Assembly: GCA_039636795.1 (NCBI GenBank)
Contig: CP143430.1
Coordinates: 1,674,001 to 1,738,000 of the forward strand
Source: Micrococcaceae bacterium Sec5.1
GTDB lineage: Bacteria > Actinomycetota > Actinomycetes > Actinomycetales > Micrococcaceae
DNA length: 64,000 bases
Reading direction: 5' to 3'
Position 1 is the first letter of the stretch; every line of letters starts with the position of its first letter. The position numbers were made by a program, and so were the translations under genes. The notes below the pieces were generated by a model, which was given only the letters and a program-made list of their open reading frames with translations, was not told the DNA's origin and did not search any database. This document shows, piece by piece, positions 3,867 through 9,852 of the stretch.

Positions 3867-5333
3867 CTAGCGTTCGGTAGCCACTGGCCGTTCTGGAACG
3901 TGCAGGCGGGACATGACGCGGTTCACGGAAGCCGGCACACGGTTCTTGGTCCAGACGGAGACTGCCACCGTCACTGCGAAAGCAGCGGGGACCGTCCATG
4001 CAGCCGGTTGCGCCAACCAGGCAGGAGCATTGCCCTGGCCCATGACAGTGCCCATCACCATGGCCCCGCCACACAGCAGCGCACCGGTCACCATCCCCGC
4101 AATTGCCCCGGCATCGGTCAGCCCACGCCACCAGATTCCCAGCAGCAACACGGGACAAATGGTGGAGGCCGTAAAGGCAAAGACCAGTCCAACGCTCCCG
4201 GCCAAGGCCAGAGTGTCTGTCATGAAAGCAAAACCCAAAGGCACGACGGCGGCAAGCAGCGCCGCGAGGCGGAATCCCCGGACGCTTCCTCCGAAGAGGT
4301 CCTGGCTGATAACGCCGGAGAGCGAAACCACCAGCCCGGACGTGGTGGACAGGAATGCGGCGAAGGCGCCGGCGACTACGAGTGCTGAGAGGAGTTCACC
4401 GGCTGTTCCACCCACGAGCTTGCCGGGCAACAGCAGGACCAAGGCATCGGCTTGTCCGGATTGTGCCAGTTCCGGGGCGAAGATTCTTCCCAGAGCGCCG
4501 GACAGCGTGGGGAAGAGATAGAACACAGAGAGCAGTCCAAGGACGATCAATGTGGTGCGGCGTGCCGATTGTCCATCTGGATTTGTGTAGAACCGTACCA
4601 GGACGTGCGGCAGGCCCAACGTCCCGAAGAGCAGTGCCACCAGGAGTGAAATGTTCTGGTAGGCGCTGGCGGCTGGCTGGCCAGTGGGATTGACCGGGAG
4701 TTGGGCTTGGTGCGGGGTGTCGTTTCCAGCCAGCACCAGGAGCACGAAAATCACGGGAACGGCCAACGCAGTCAGCTTGAGCCAATACTGGAAAGCCTGA
4801 ACGAACGTAATGGACCGCATCCCACCAGCCACCACAGTGAGGCACACCACCAGCACCACCGCCGTCGAACCTACCCACGACGGCAGTCCCGTGGTGATGC
4901 GGATGGTGAGCGCAGCGCCATGAAGCTGGGGCACGATGTACAGCCAGCCGACGGCCACCACTACCAGGCTTGTGACGCGTCGAACCATCCTGGAATCCAG
5001 GCGCGCCTCGGTGAAATCCGGGATGGTGTACGCGCCAGAGCGCCGCAGGGGAGCGGCAACGAAAAGCAACAGCATGAGGTAACCAGCGGTGTAACCAACA
5101 GGGAACCACAAGGCATCGGTTCCGGACAGCAGGATCAGTCCCGCGACTCCCAGGAAGCTCGCGGCGGAGAGGTATTCGCCGCCAATCGCTGAGGCATTCC
5201 ACCACGGCGGAACCGTGCGCGAGGCAACGTAGAAGTCTCCAGTAGTGCGTGAGATGCGCAGGCCGTAGAAGCCGATGACCGCCGTCGTGATCGAAACTGC
5301 CAGAAAGGCGACCAAACCAACAGCAGGGTTCAC
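3867..5333 (-). CDS. Solute:sodium symporter (SSS family)
   Basis: The 488-residue integral membrane protein has the SSS fold with 12-13 hydrophobic helices. An early GDFYVASRTVPPWWNASAIGGEYLSAASFLG-type segment, given here by its ends GDFYVASR and EYLSAASF, is typical of the acetate/proline/pantothenate branch. It probably takes up a small carboxylate with sodium; the substrate cannot be read from sequence. GTG at 5333 overlaps the stop of the upstream small membrane protein by 4 bp. It is the last clear gene of an apparent operon kinase-regulator-small protein-symporter. Confidence 0.9.
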   Translation of the reverse strand: MNPAVGLVAFLAVSITTAVIGFYGLRISRTTGDFYVASRTVPPWWNASAIGGEYLSAASFLGVAGLILLSGTDALWFPVGYTAGYLMLLLFVAAPLRRSGAYTIPDFTEARLDSRMVRRVTSLVVVAVGWLYIVPQLHGAALTIRITTGLPSWVGSTAVVLVVCLTVVAGGMRSITFVQAFQYWLKLTALAVPVIFVLLVLAGNDTPHQAQLPVNPTGQPAASAYQNISLLVALLFGTLGLPHVLVRFYTNPDGQSARRTTLIVLGLLSVFYLFPTLSGALGRIFAPELAQSGQADALVLLLPGKLVGGTAGELLSALVVAGAFAAFLSTTSGLVVSLSGVISQDLFGGSVRGFRLAALLAAVVPLGFAFMTDTLALAGSVGLVFAFTASTICPVLLLGIWWRGLTDAGAIAGMVTGALLCGGAMVMGTVMGQGNAPAWLAQPAAWTVPAAFAVTVAVSVWTKNRVPASVNRVMSRLHVPERPVATER

Positions 5334-5692
5334 TTGTCCTCCACGAGGTCCCGATATCGGGCTTCATTGCGTGCGGCCGCGCGGTTGTACAGCCAGGCGC
5401 TCAGGCCGATCACGGGGTAGATCCCCAGCCCCAGCAACAGCCAGTCGAGCGGAATGCCCAGGATCCGAGTCTCGGCCACCCCTGGTCCGAAGACCAGCAA
5501 TAGGGCGAAGGCAGCGAGAATCAGCAGGAAGCCGCAGGCCACCACCAAGGCGAGCCGCAGTTGCGAGCGGATGAGGGAACGGACGAAAACGCGTCCCGCG
5601 TCCGAATCCTCGGCGACTTCGCCGCCGTAAGGGAACCGGGTGGGGGTCGGTATGGCTGCTTGGTGTGGTGCCGTGACCCGAACGCGCGTCAT
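5330..5692 (-). CDS. Small membrane partner of the SSS symporter
   Basis: This 120-residue protein has a soluble N terminus, two hydrophobic helices at about 47-70 and 80-102, and a charged tail (RNEARYRDLVED). Size, topology and position directly before an SSS symporter match the DUF485-type small subunits that accompany acetate-type symporters, though I see no firm family motif. It overlaps the symporter by 4 bp and the response regulator by 4 bp, so all three are probably translated from one mRNA. Confidence 0.75.
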   Translation of the reverse strand: MTRVRVTAPHQAAIPTPTRFPYGGEVAEDSDAGRVFVRSLIRSQLRLALVVACGFLLILAAFALLLVFGPGVAETRILGIPLDWLLLGLGIYPVIGLSAWLYNRAAARNEARYRDLVEDK

Positions 5693-6408
5693 CCTTGAGG
5701 CCGGATGCGGGTGGATTGCAGCTTGTCACGCACCGATGGCAGGTGGCGCCGGCTAATGGGCAGTTCCGCGCCAGCCACTCTTACGCTGGGGGCAGTCGCA
5801 GAAAGCTTCAAATGCCCCACATGGTCCAAGGCAATCAGGTAGCTGCGGTGGATCCGGATAAAACCGGCTTCGGCCCACTTCTGTTCCAGATCGCTGAGCG
5901 GGACGCGGATCAGGTAACTGGCTTCGGCTGTGTGCAGCCTGGCGTAATCGCCCTGCGCCTGCACGTAGCTGACATCATCCCGACGGATCATGCGGGTAGT
6001 GCTTCCCAAGTCCACCGTGATCATTTCGGGAGCAGGAGCGCCGTCCTTGATCAGCTCGCTGATCCGGTCCACGGATCGTGCCAGCCGCTCGGCACGGAGC
6101 GGCTTGAGGAGATAGTCGATGGCAGCGAGGTCAAAGGCCTCCAACGCGCAGTCTTCGTCAGCGGTGACAAACACGACGGCGGGCGGGCTGCTGCTGCGCG
6201 CGATGGCGCGGGCGATGTCCAAACCAGATAGGGCCGGCATATGGATGTCGAGGAACACGGCGTCAACGGACTCCCGTTCCAGGATCCGTAAAGCCTCGGC
6301 CCCGGACGAGGCGCGATGGATGGTGCCAATGCGCGCATCCCGCCCGAGCAGGAAAGCGAGCTCCTCCACGGCGGGCAGTTCGTCATCAGCGACGAGCACG
6401 TTGATCAT
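5689..6408 (-). CDS. LytTR-family response regulator
   Basis: A 239-residue DNA-binding response regulator. The receiver domain (about 1-120) has the acidic pair DD at 8-9, the phospho-acceptor Asp54 in FLDIHMP, and a conserved Lys in YLLKPL. The C-terminal part (about 130-232) is a LytTR domain with YVQAQGDYARLHT and FIRIHRSYLIALDHV, typical of this non-HTH fold. It follows its likely kinase by 22 bp. LytTR regulators bind direct repeats about 21 bp apart; such a repeat lies in the nearby divergent intergenic region (7700-7731). Confidence 0.95.
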   Translation of the reverse strand: MINVLVADDELPAVEELAFLLGRDARIGTIHRASSGAEALRILERESVDAVFLDIHMPALSGLDIARAIARSSSPPAVVFVTADEDCALEAFDLAAIDYLLKPLRAERLARSVDRISELIKDGAPAPEMITVDLGSTTRMIRRDDVSYVQAQGDYARLHTAEASYLIRVPLSDLEQKWAEAGFIRIHRSYLIALDHVGHLKLSATAPSVRVAGAELPISRRHLPSVRDKLQSTRIRPQG

Positions 6409-6430: not shown

Positions 6431-7633
6431 TCAGGCGTCATGTCCGGGCTGGGATTTGGGGACCCGCATGGTGATCAGCGTTCCTTCACCTGGAGCCGTT
6501 TCGATGACGAGGCCGTGCTCGTCCCCATAGACCTGCCGCAAGCGGGCGTCCACGTTGCGCAAGCCCACGTGCTCACCGTCTGTATGTCCGGCAAGCACGG
6601 ACCGCAGGTGCTCCGGGTCCATCCCCACGCCGTCGTCCTCGATAGTGACCTCGGCGAACGCGCCGGAATCGTTTGCGCAAATGGTGATGTGTCCCGGGCC
6701 TTCCTTCGCCTCAAGGCCGTGCCGGACCGCGTTCTCCACCAGCGGTTGCAGACTAAGGAACGGTATGACCGTGCTCAGCACCTCGGGTGCGATCCGAAGG
6801 CTGACCTGCACGCGCTCGCCGAACCTGGCCCGTTCCAGAAGAAGGTAGCGGTCGATGCAGCGCAGTTCCTCGGCCACCGTGGTGAAGTCGCCGTGCCTTC
6901 GGAAGGAGTACCTGGTGAAGTCGGCGAACTCCACCACGAGCTCCCTGGCCCGGGCGGGATCAGTATTGATGAAGGAAGCGATCACATTCAAGGAGTTGTA
7001 AATGAAGTGCGGGCTGATCTGGGCACGAAGCGCACGGACCTCGGCCTCCATCAGCAGGGTCCGCGAAGCCTCCAACTCAGCCAGCTCAAGCTGGGCGGCA
7101 ATCCAGTCAGCCACTTCGCTGGTGGCCCGTACCAGCCCGGCTCCAGCCGAGGGCGCAAGGGCTGCCACCGATCCGACTACTTTGGAGCCGGCACGGATGG
7201 GGGCAATGACAGCACTGAAATCGTGGTGGCCGTGCTCGGATTTTGCGGACGCAGAATGGCCGGCGTGGGGCACCACGGCAGTTCGGCCCGTCGCCAGCAC
7301 CTCCGCGGCGAGACGCATGAGGGAAGGCCGCAGCTCCTCCGCAACCCCATCCCAGGCAAGGACCGTATCGGTGTCCGTAATGGCCAGCGCGTCGCAGCCG
7401 AGGAGCATTCGCAGTTGCTTGCTCGCCTTGGCCGCGCCAGAGGCTTGCAGTCCGCCACGCAGGTGCTGCCCTGCACGCGAGGCCGCGTGAAGTGTGTTGT
7501 AGGTGGCCCGCTCAGCGTCCGTGCCCAGGTCCCGGAAGGAGCGGATCACCTTCAGTCCAACACCCACGACGACGGCGACGGCCAGCACGATCACGGCGAT
7601 CGCGGCTGCGGTGAAGAGCGGGGAGTCAGGCAT
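6431..7633 (-). CDS. LytS-like sensor histidine kinase
   Basis: A 400-residue kinase: one N-terminal membrane helix at about 8-30, a GAF-like sensory region at about 65-185, then the His_kinase dimerisation segment with the phospho-accepting His209 in QISPHFIYNSLN, and a HATPase domain with VENAVRHGLE and EDDGVGMD. It lacks the multi-helix 5TM-LYT sensor of classical LytS, so the signal is probably sensed by the GAF-like domain in the cytoplasm. It pairs with the LytTR regulator next to it. There is no ribosome site before ATG 7633, and TACGCT ends 6 nt upstream, so the mRNA is probably leaderless. Confidence 0.93.
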   Translation of the reverse strand: MPDSPLFTAAAIAVIVLAVAVVVGVGLKVIRSFRDLGTDAERATYNTLHAASRAGQHLRGGLQASGAAKASKQLRMLLGCDALAITDTDTVLAWDGVAEELRPSLMRLAAEVLATGRTAVVPHAGHSASAKSEHGHHDFSAVIAPIRAGSKVVGSVAALAPSAGAGLVRATSEVADWIAAQLELAELEASRTLLMEAEVRALRAQISPHFIYNSLNVIASFINTDPARARELVVEFADFTRYSFRRHGDFTTVAEELRCIDRYLLLERARFGERVQVSLRIAPEVLSTVIPFLSLQPLVENAVRHGLEAKEGPGHITICANDSGAFAEVTIEDDGVGMDPEHLRSVLAGHTDGEHVGLRNVDARLRQVYGDEHGLVIETAPGEGTLITMRVPKSQPGHDA

Positions 7634-7699: not shown

Positions 7700-7731
7700 A
7701 CCGTTCGGCGCAGCATCCTGACCGTTGGGCG
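7700..7731 (+). promoter_or_regulatory. Candidate LytTR binding site (21-bp-period direct repeat)
   Basis: ACCGTTCGGCG (7700-7710) and ACCGTTGGGCG (7721-7731) match at 10 of 11 positions and begin exactly 21 bp apart, two helical turns. This is the layout of known LytTR targets. It lies between the kinase operon and the DUF485-symporter operon, about 110 bp before the latter's start. Confidence 0.6.
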
Positions 7732-7777
7732 ACGGTGGCAGCTGGTTCTCTGGAACCACTGGCACGGCGCGTTCGAT

Positions 7778-7793
7778 AGTGATTGCAGTCACA
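7778..7793. promoter_or_regulatory. CRP/GlxR-like operator upstream of the DUF485-actP operon
   Basis: AGTGA-N6-TCACA matches the CRP-family consensus TGTGA-N6-TCACA at 9 of 10 positions. It is 50 bp before the DUF485 start, so it overlaps or follows the likely promoter. Confidence 0.55.
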
Positions 7794-7843
7794 TTGGCAA
7801 AGCGTGTGGAGCTGATGTGGACACATCACAATCAGGAGGAACC

Positions 7844-8224
7844 ATGGGTAATGAGGCCCAACCCCAGGACGCAACAGCGTCGGTGGACTTCCAGGAAGTC
7901 CAGCAAACGGAACGGTTCAAGACGCTGCGCAAGCGGCACCGCAGTTTTGTCTTCCCAATGGCAGTGGCGTTCCTGCTTTGGTATTTCGCCTACGTTCTCT
8001 TGGCCGACTACGCCGTCGGCTTCATGTCCATCAAAGTTTGGGGCAACATCAACGTCGGCCTGATCCTCGGACTGCTCCAATTTGTCACCACGTTCGGCAT
8101 CACCGCTTGGTACGTGAGCTACTCCAACCGGAAGCTGGACCCCATCGCTGCCGAGATCCGCAACGAGATCGAGGGCCACCAGTTCGATAAGGACGGCAAT
8201 GTGATCAGCAGGGCAGCCAAATGA
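7844..8224 (+). CDS. DUF485 membrane protein, partner of ActP-like symporter
   Basis: A 126-residue protein of the DUF485 family (YjcH-like). A soluble N terminus contains FKTLRKRHRSFVFPM, followed by two membrane helices at about 37-58 and 70-95 and a short charged tail. In many bacteria this small protein is encoded directly before the acetate symporter actP and is thought to assist it. The start ATG at 7844 follows the strong ribosome site AGGAGG. It overlaps the symporter by 4 bp (ATGA). Confidence 0.92.
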   Translation: MGNEAQPQDATASVDFQEVQQTERFKTLRKRHRSFVFPMAVAFLLWYFAYVLLADYAVGFMSIKVWGNINVGLILGLLQFVTTFGITAWYVSYSNRKLDPIAAEIRNEIEGHQFDKDGNVISRAAK

Positions 8225-9852
8225 CCACGAACCACATCAGCACCCTTGTCCCCGCGGTCAACGTCGCCGCATTGAAGGATACGACGCTGCTCAACATGGG
8301 TATTTTCGCGCTCTTCGTGGCCGTCACCATGGTGATCGTCTTCCGGGCCAGCAGGAACAACAAGACCGCGGCGGACTACTATGCGGCCGGCCGTTCCTTC
8401 ACCGGTTCACAGAACGGTACAGCGATCGCGGGCGACTACCTTTCGGCGGCCTCGTTCCTGGGTATCACTGGCGCCATTGCTATCAACGGATATGACGGTT
8501 TCCTTTACTCCATCGGCTTCCTCGTCGCATGGTTGGTGGCCTTGCTCCTCGTGGCCGAGCTCTTGCGCAACACCGGCAAGTTCACCATGGCCGATGTCTT
8601 GTCGTTCAGACTTCGCCAGCGGCCGGTCCGAATAGCAGCAGCCCTCTCCACCCTTGCGGTTTGCTTCTTTTACCTCCTAGCGCAAATGGCGGGAGCCGGT
8701 AGCTTGATTTCGCTCCTCTTGGGCATCAGCGACTGGGGCGGACAAGCTTTGGTGATTATCGTCGTCGGCGCCCTGATGATTATGTACGTCCTCATCGGAG
8801 GCATGAAGGGCACCACCTGGGTGCAGATCATCAAAGCCATCCTGCTGATCGCAGGCGCTGCAGTCATGACTGCCTGGGTGCTCGCGATCTACGGATTCAA
8901 TCTCTCCAATTTGCTCGGTTCCGCGGCCGAGGCCGCCAACAACCCTGCCGTTCTCAACCCAGGCCTGCAGTATGGCAAGACGGAAACGTCCAAGCTCGAT
9001 TTCATGTCCTTGGGCTTGGCATTGGTCCTCGGCACTGCTGCCCTCCCACACGTTTTGATGCGTTTCTACACGGTTCCCACAGCCAAGGAAGCACGCAAAT
9101 CCGTGGTCTGGTCGATCTGGCTGATCGGCCTGTTCTACCTGTTCACGCTGGTACTGGGCTACGGTGCAGCAGCTTTGGTTGGAGCAGATACCATCAAGTC
9201 CGCACCCGGCGGCGTCAACTCTGCCGCACCCCTGCTGGCCTTCCACCTCGGTGGGCCGCTGCTGCTCGGCTTCATATCCGCCGTCGCTTTCGCCACCATC
9301 CTTGCAGTGGTAGCGGGACTGACCATCACAGCGGCGGCGTCCTTTGCCCATGACATTTACGCCAATGTCATCTCTAAGGGCAAGGCCGACGCCACCACAG
9401 AGGTCAAGGTGGCCCGGCGCACCGTAGTGGTCATCGGTATTCTCGCCATCCTCGGTGGAATCTTCGCCAACGGCCAGAACGTCGCCTTCCTGGTGGCTCT
9501 TGCCTTCGCAGTGGCAGCTTCGGCCAACCTGCCAACCATCGTCTACTCGTTGTTCTGGCGGAAGTTCACCACACAGGGTGCCGTATGGAGCATGTATGGT
9601 GGCTTGGGTTCGGCCATCCTGCTCATCGCGTTCTCGCCCGTGGTCTCGGGTGCAAAGACGTCCATGATCCAGGGAGCCAACTTCGCGTTCTTCCCGCTGA
9701 GCAACCCGGGCATCGTATCCATCCCCCTCGCCTTCCTGCTGGGCTGGCTGGGGACCGTCCTGGATAAGCGCCGTGAGGATCCGGCCAAGCAAGCGGAGAT
9801 GGAAGTCCGCTCACTGACTGGTATCGGTGCAGAGAAAGCGGTGGATCACTAA
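8221..9852 (+). CDS. actP: ActP/MctC-like monocarboxylate (acetate) sodium symporter
   Basis: A 543-residue SSS-family permease with about 13 membrane helices. Typical motifs are ADYYAAGRSFTGSQNGTAIA at about residues 50-69, YLSAASFLGITG, and LPHVLMRFYTVP in the central helices. The preceding DUF485 gene is the usual mark of the acetate/propionate/pyruvate branch, so a monocarboxylate:sodium role is likely; the exact substrate is not proven. It is the second SSS symporter around the LytS/LytTR pair. Confidence 0.9.
   Translation: MTTNHISTLVPAVNVAALKDTTLLNMGIFALFVAVTMVIVFRASRNNKTAADYYAAGRSFTGSQNGTAIAGDYLSAASFLGITGAIAINGYDGFLYSIGFLVAWLVALLLVAELLRNTGKFTMADVLSFRLRQRPVRIAAALSTLAVCFFYLLAQMAGAGSLISLLLGISDWGGQALVIIVVGALMIMYVLIGGMKGTTWVQIIKAILLIAGAAVMTAWVLAIYGFNLSNLLGSAAEAANNPAVLNPGLQYGKTETSKLDFMSLGLALVLGTAALPHVLMRFYTVPTAKEARKSVVWSIWLIGLFYLFTLVLGYGAAALVGADTIKSAPGGVNSAAPLLAFHLGGPLLLGFISAVAFATILAVVAGLTITAAASFAHDIYANVISKGKADATTEVKVARRTVVVIGILAILGGIFANGQNVAFLVALAFAVAASANLPTIVYSLFWRKFTTQGAVWSMYGGLGSAILLIAFSPVVSGAKTSMIQGANFAFFPLSNPGIVSIPLAFLLGWLGTVLDKRREDPAKQAEMEVRSLTGIGAEKAVDH

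Follow-up and report, generated by a model that had tools for sequence, protein, structure and literature searches.

The window analysed here, a stretch of 64,000 nucleotides from Micrococcaceae bacterium Sec5.1, carries a histidine kinase operon on the minus strand and a DUF485-symporter operon on the plus strand, with a short direct repeat in the gap between them. The features on which the analysis relies are listed below in order of position.

3867 to 5333, minus strand: second symporter-like protein, in the kinase operon (PF00474, 163.5 bits)
5330 to 5692, minus strand: small DUF485-like membrane protein, in the kinase operon (PF04341, 26.8 bits, just under the cut-off of 28)
5689 to 6408, minus strand: LytTR response regulator, the presumed binder of the boxes (Response_reg and LytTR domains)
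6431 to 7633, minus strand: histidine kinase (hydrophobic segment at residues 1-34, GAF, His_kinase and HATPase)
7700 to 7711, plus strand: predicted LytTR operator box 1, ACCGTTCGGCGC, with the 11-mer ACCGTTCGGCG at 7700-7710 (from the direct repeat, the conservation at 21 bp and the position profile)
7721 to 7732, plus strand: predicted LytTR operator box 2, ACCGTTGGGCGA, with the 11-mer ACCGTTGGGCG at 7721-7731 (same basis as box 1)
7748 to 7755, plus strand: conserved CTCTGGAA, a possible weak -35 element of a putative DUF485-mctC promoter
7775 to 7780, plus strand: GATAGT, a putative -10 element, conserved in close relatives
7778 to 7793, plus strand: CRP/GlxR-like palindrome AGTGATTGCAGTCACA (from the conservation of GYGR-N6-TCAC)
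7834 to 7839, plus strand: AGGAGG, ribosome-binding site of the DUF485 gene, 4 bases before the ATG at 7844
7844 to 8224, plus strand: DUF485 gene, the first of the target operon (PF04341, 115.1 bits)
8221 to 9852, plus strand: mctC-like symporter gene (PF00474; NCBIfam NF058657, MctC)

Both domains of the regulator pass their Pfam cut-offs, with 76 bits for the receiver (cut-off 30.2) and 68.7 bits for LytTR (cut-off 22.6), and it is the sole LytTR protein found in its own genome. Its best NCBIfam model is BtsR at 139.8 bits, which is under the cut-off of 246. The symporter at 8221 to 9852 passes the NCBIfam model NF058657 (MctC, monocarboxylic acid transporter) with 904.3 bits against a cut-off of 670; judging from this family, its predicted substrates are pyruvate, acetate or propionate. 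The kinase operon bears a second, diverged copy of the symporter/DUF485 transporter pair at 3867-5692, and for its symporter-like protein (3867 to 5333) no NCBIfam model passed its cut-off.

The initial annotation had pointed to a direct repeat with a 21-bp period in the gap common to the kinase operon and the DUF485-symporter operon. Both the repeat and its placement were borne out: the copies ACCGTTCGGCG (from 7700) and ACCGTTGGGCG (from 7721) have starts exactly 21 bp apart and one mismatch in 11 bases, and they lie inside the 210-bp gap that separates the minus-strand kinase start at 7633 from the plus-strand DUF485 start at 7844. On the opposite strand, the kinase operon has its start 67 bp before box 1. 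Whether counted as 11-nt repeats with 10 nt between them or as 9-nt repeats with 12, the arrangement has the 21-bp period and the format of LytTR-type operators.

A genome-wide pattern, RCCGYTNRSCG-N10-RCCGYTNRSCG, which was written after the repeat had been seen, has a single exact match in the 5,426,886 bases (5.43 Mb) of the genome, at 7700, and zero one-mismatch matches in the whole genome. When up to 3 mismatches are allowed, 192 genome matches are obtained vs 218 for a reversed-pattern control, which corresponds to background. Beyond the exact site, a search by mismatches for a regulon in the window's own genome returned nothing above background and was rejected. With a matrix scan of both strands of the 64-kb window, one 21-bp pair of at least 8 bits is found, located at 7700 and scoring 34.3 bits. 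An 11-bp repeat in two copies within a GC-rich gap is weak evidence alone and might have arisen by chance; it becomes convincing because it is conserved in relatives.

Conservation of the pair among relatives

Relatives of the kinase were collected from named genomes (80 loci) and from genomes of the genus and family, giving 140 loci in total. In 131 of these, the kinase and DUF485 genes are divergent with a gap of less than 900 bp, resulting in 124 distinct gaps. Related genomes are non-independent; all counts refer to sequences, not events. The pair NCC(A/G)(C/T)T is present at exactly 21 bp in 106 of the 124 distinct gaps, and first-order random sequences, used as a control, gave a mean of 0.3 and a maximum of 3. 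Grouped by kinase identity, the pair is found in 25/25 gaps at 88% or more, 43/43 at 80-88%, 30/47 at 65-80% and 8/9 below this range. When CCG(C/T)T boxes are counted, the 21-bp spacing occurs in 102 gaps and the next most frequent one, 20 bp, in 13. The repeat is consequently conserved at its exact spacing in relatives that keep the kinase/regulator pair, a check that the initial annotation had proposed. Since this spacing is kept in so many gaps and also at other promoters, a chance repeat is extremely improbable.

Eighteen of the 124 gaps lack the strict pair, which counts against an operator, and many of these retain, by eye, a good box together with an altered one 21 bp away. The regular expression undercounted such degenerate pairs, so a matrix was used afterwards. 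Based on this matrix, 127 of the 131 kinase loci reach at least 12 bits, a count that is circular in part, as mctC boxes served to train the matrix. The matrix counts for the cstA, OFA, kinase-less and distant loci are not circular. In the divergent relatives L039, L044 and L047, two successive 21-bp steps result in three boxes.

Some loci in this collection are unusual. Two Arthrobacter-like loci (L040 and L046) stem from records titled Vibrio cholerae strain 35D and Sporosarcina beigongshangi, which are probably mislabelled or contaminated. In one genus genome, an additional kinase (51% identity) lies close to an additional LytTR match (G021:C2:208192-211193). Near two kinase orthologues, L073 (61%) and L286 (55%), neither a regulator nor a symporter could be recognised within the stretch taken.

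Forty genomes have no convincing kinase orthologue, and 21 of them possess an mctC orthologue with 73-83% identity. In none of these 21 was the pair found within 400 bp upstream of mctC; over 1100 bp upstream, the best matrix score is -8.6 bits. None of the 21 has a LytTR match either. More broadly, LytTR matches are missing from 26 of the 27 genomes searched that lack a convincing kinase, among them all 21 with mctC; in the remaining one, G041, a LytTR match sits in a longer frame and mctC was not matched. Five of the genomes with no convincing kinase belong to the same genus (G041, G051, G065, G079 and G097), and these have no mctC orthologue either.

The assignment of the repeat to the LytTR regulator, as made in the initial annotation, is supported by its presence in 106/124 gaps and its absence (0/21) from the kinase-less mctC genomes. 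As judged from sequence comparison, the repeat is very probably the docking site of this regulator. Co-occurrence is a correlation, and the repeat could in principle be the site of an unrelated regulator that accompanies the locus. This is very improbable, however, as 0/21 of the mctC genomes without the pair have a LytTR match, both the 21-bp period and the box match printed LytTR sites, and the pair occurs at three unlinked gene families.

Position of the pair at the DUF485-mctC operon

The pair accompanies the DUF485-mctC operon when this operon lies elsewhere. Where mctC is away from the kinase start, the pair precedes DUF485-mctC in 10/10 examined loci (2 by eye and 8 by matrix), in agreement with the DUF485-symporter operon being the target, as had been predicted at the outset. 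In Nonomuraea cavernae (L080) and Planotetraspora mira (L075), the two examined by eye, mctC is situated downstream of the kinase operon and the pair stands before DUF485, as ACCGTTCGTCG/ACCTTTCATCG and GCCGTTCGGCG/ACCTCTCGCCG, respectively, each 21 bp apart. A distant set consisted of 20 loci of 17-19 kb each. All nine distant loci with DUF485-mctC (9/9) have a pair of at least 13 bits, 145-254 bp before the DUF485 match, and in 8 of these 9 DUF485-mctC lies away from the kinase start. In the stretch taken, the seven f5-family loci (L281-L285, L299 and L300) contain no DUF485-mctC. In L297, a cstA-like gene located at most 0.8 kb from the kinase is preceded by a 25.8-bit pair, and further pairs of at least 12 bits among the 20 distant loci occur in L285, L294, L295 (a third box), L300 and L296.

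These positions bear on the possibility that the repeat, while being the site of the LytTR regulator, mainly serves autoregulation of the kinase operon. The gap is common to both operons and, according to the available part of PMC6193735, a different kind of LytTR-type system uses such repeats for autoregulation. However, the pair goes with DUF485-mctC, and at the kinase start of the 8 distant loci with mctC elsewhere the matrix showed no pair of at least 8 bits. The boxes also read toward mctC, with zero 21-bp pairs of (A/G)CC(A/G)(C/T)T boxes on the opposite strand in the 124 gaps, and the same pair occurs before cstA and OFA genes. Autoregulation as the main role is quite unlikely and was rejected on the ground that, in loci with mctC elsewhere, it is mctC that the pair precedes.

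Between the boxes and DUF485, information content is high for CTCTGGAA (offsets 49-55 from box 1) among the 25 close relatives and, in part, among the 43 at 80-88% kinase identity; this conservation is absent in the more distant set of relatives. The element lies farther from the boxes than the 10 bp reported in PMC6193735, as far as available, to be commonest in S. mutans-type systems, which counts against the operator reading. A consensus promoter search for DUF485-mctC gave no match. The palindrome at 7778 to 7793 is one that we take to resemble CRP/GlxR sites. Its pattern, GYGR-N6-TCAC, is found in 107/124 gaps with the kinase and in 12/21 upstream regions without it (random control: mean 0.8, maximum 4), and as the palindrome is present both with and without the kinase, it appears to be an input of its own. 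Measured from box 1, the AGTGA of this CRP/GlxR-like element comes 76-78 bp downstream in 87 of the 89 sequences having both. This near-constant spacing suggests that the boxes keep a fixed phase relative to some element near the promoter.

Another option is that the regulator binds the boxes and represses DUF485-mctC, in keeping with the fact that the boxes overlap no known start site. This is unlikely, as the boxes are upstream of the putative promoter elements at 7748-7780, as in the LytTR-activated promoters treated in PMC6193735, and both BtsR and YpdB are described in the consulted portion of PMC7730263 as inducing their transporters, BtsT and YhjX. From position, family and the analogy to BtsR/YpdB, we infer that the regulator would activate DUF485-mctC.

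A perfect palindrome, TGATGTG-GA-CACATCA, is located at 7813-7828, past the promoter region and ahead of the DUF485 ribosome-binding site. It is kept in close relatives, not in L008.

Candidate targets beyond mctC

A looser pattern was run over 61 genus genomes. Among the matches listed, a second recurrent pair with a different spacer is found before an MFS transporter gene. With matches per genome near the control, this second family had been considered as noise; that explanation was rejected, the pair being part of an OFA-type transporter promoter. The MFS transporter scores 306.9 bits with the SfMCT L-lactate model (cut-off 320) and 172.7 bits with the oxalate/formate antiporter subfamily model (cut-off 374.85), and is thus under both cut-offs. 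OFA-type genes were matched in 34 of the 61 genomes, the window's own only weakly, and 30 loci were scanned. In these loci, chosen by protein homology, the strict pair is present in 24/30 and the loose pair in 26/30 (control means of 0 and 0.26, respectively), while the mctC-trained matrix detects a pair of at least 12 bits at 21 bp before 29/30.

For cstA, a set of 50 promoters was composed of 30 loci and 20 of the 24 other matching genus genomes (G016, G019, G030 and G053 were omitted). Within 600 bp upstream, the mctC-trained matrix reaches at least 12 bits at spacing 21 in 31/50, and at any other spacing from 13 to 29 in 0-2/50. The remaining 19/50 genus cstA promoters stay below 12 bits, which counts against the operator reading. 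For genomes lacking a convincing kinase, 20 cstA loci (L321-L340) out of 23 matching genomes were scanned, and 3/20 promoters reach at least 12 bits, one at the usual place (G097) and two at unusual places. G097 has no LytTR match, yet carries a 23.4-bit pair before cstA; this counts against the proposed link, and the pair may be a relic. A further pair was seen in one genome, that of an uncultured actinobacterium (L076), before a GPR1/FUN34/YaaH-family (YaaH/SatP-type) gene.

Exactly one LytTR match was found in 18 of the 19 genus genomes tested, a set selected largely on account of the second pair. To go by the boxes upstream of cstA and of the OFA-type MFS transporter gene, these too are probably targets of the regulator in relatives, and with these likely extra targets a monocarboxylate-uptake regulon emerges. 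It looks wider than the initial annotation had foreseen, taking in cstA, the OFA-type MFS gene and, in one genome, the YaaH/SatP-type gene. The genome of the window itself has a weak cstA site (3.8 bits, with one good box) and an OFA orthologue was not found there, so mctC may be its only strong target. Taken together, the targets point to short monocarboxylates, not to one acid, as the presumed ligand.

Two minor observations concern other genes. In L206 (1223-1265, genome G016), three boxes in 21-bp steps stand before a cstA-like gene that looks split between two frames. In L296 (3869-5952), the 12.6-bit pair overlaps the end of the symporter gene and lies 110 bp before an acetate-CoA ligase gene, which comes after the kinase operon.

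Proposed regulatory model and comparison with known LytTR systems

We consider it highly likely that the regulator at 5689-6408 operates at the two boxes and switches on DUF485-mctC monocarboxylate uptake, with a wider regulon in relatives. The adjacent kinase would phosphorylate the LytTR regulator, two molecules of which would sit on the boxes, two helical turns apart on one DNA face. The bound regulator would then help RNA polymerase to start the DUF485-mctC operon, and uptake of short monocarboxylates (the pyruvate, acetate and propionate class) would be switched on as a result. The CRP/GlxR-like site at the promoter would add a second input.

According to PMC4847170, in the part available, LytTR sites consist of two repeats of 9-11 nt with 11-13 nt between them and have no common consensus, so box likeness alone proves little. 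A close likeness is to E. coli BtsS/BtsR (YehU/YehT), with a LytTR regulator and a site upstream of btsT (yjiY), the gene of a CstA-family pyruvate transporter. The BtsR site, ACCGCTTA-N13-ACCACTCA (PMC4847170, Table 1), has a 21-bp period and is similar to the boxes here; both contain ACC(G/A)(C/T)T. The targets differ, being the CstA-family btsT in E. coli and the SSF-family mctC here. At btsT, CRP is described as a second input in the excerpt of PMC5431176. As reported in the accessible text of PMC7730263, BtsT, CstA and YhjX are each able to import pyruvate, and E. coli cstA itself is outside BtsR control.

The other E. coli system, YpdA/YpdB (PyrS/PyrR), also has a LytTR regulator, with a 10-bp direct repeat before the MFS gene yhjX (PMC4847170, in part). 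YhjX is implicated in pyruvate uptake (PMC7730263, in part), and its counterparts here are the OFA-type MFS genes of relatives with the pair. The YpdB repeat, GGCATTTCAT, is unlike the box here. Whereas E. coli has two regulators, one LytTR domain was found in 18/19 genomes tested here. In S. mutans, the BrsR repeats ACCACTTAT-12-ACCGCTTAT show the 21-bp period and lie upstream of the -35 (PMC6193735, Table 2, from the part available). The S. mutans HdrRM and BrsRM systems are autoregulating and pair the regulator with a membrane inhibitor protein, not with a kinase.

The MctC of Corynebacterium glutamicum, to whose family the symporter here belongs by the NCBIfam cut-off, is described as a pyruvate transporter (PMC7730263) and as a monocarboxylate transporter (PMC7026483). 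In the excerpts of these two papers, no LytTR control of MctC is mentioned. The control genomes in which LytTR was matched do not include C. glutamicum. In the open-access literature searched, which leaves most subscription journals outside, no prior description of such a system was recognised.

The main difference from BtsS/BtsR concerns the sensor. As stated in the available part of PMC10653868, all LytS-like kinases, BtsS included, have a 5TMR-LYT input domain. In the kinase here, which has one hydrophobic segment only, no match to 5TMR-LYT was obtained up to an E-value of 10, which places it outside the LytS-type (BtsS-like) kinases. The system is therefore like BtsS/BtsR at the DNA end and is not filed as BtsS/BtsR. 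It is best read as a BtsR-like regulon for monocarboxylate uptake in actinobacteria, one that has a different sensor. As such, it yields an operator and a regulon open to test, from a LytTR system of actinobacteria whose one regulator seems to act on several carboxylate importers that are not related to each other. It also suggests that the link between a BtsR-like box and pyruvate/acetate uptake exists in both Actinobacteria and Enterobacteria, with the sensor differing.

A hint as to the function of the kinase operon's symporter-like protein comes from its gene neighbourhood. Best matches to the small DUF485-like protein are present in 137/140 loci and to the second symporter in 139/140, cross-matches to mctC included. 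In most distant loci, both remain near the kinase and the regulator, even when mctC is elsewhere. A transporter-like co-sensor is proposed because these two proteins stay near the kinase. The symporter-like protein and its DUF485-like partner (3867-5692) might then form a transporter-like monocarboxylate sensor that replaces 5TMR-LYT and reports to the one-segment GAF kinase, with one LytTR box leading to MctC, CstA, the OFA-type MFS and YaaH/SatP; we put this forward tentatively, as a somewhat doubtful proposal. Contrary to the co-sensor pattern, L073 and L286 have the kinase without the small protein and the second symporter.

A last likeness, which may be coincidence, concerns the spacing of short motifs past the boxes. 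Upstream of E. coli btsT (L351, 784-809), CTCTGG and GATAGC are found 58 and 78 bp past its first box, and in the window CTCTGG and GATAGT lie 48 and 75 bp past box 1.
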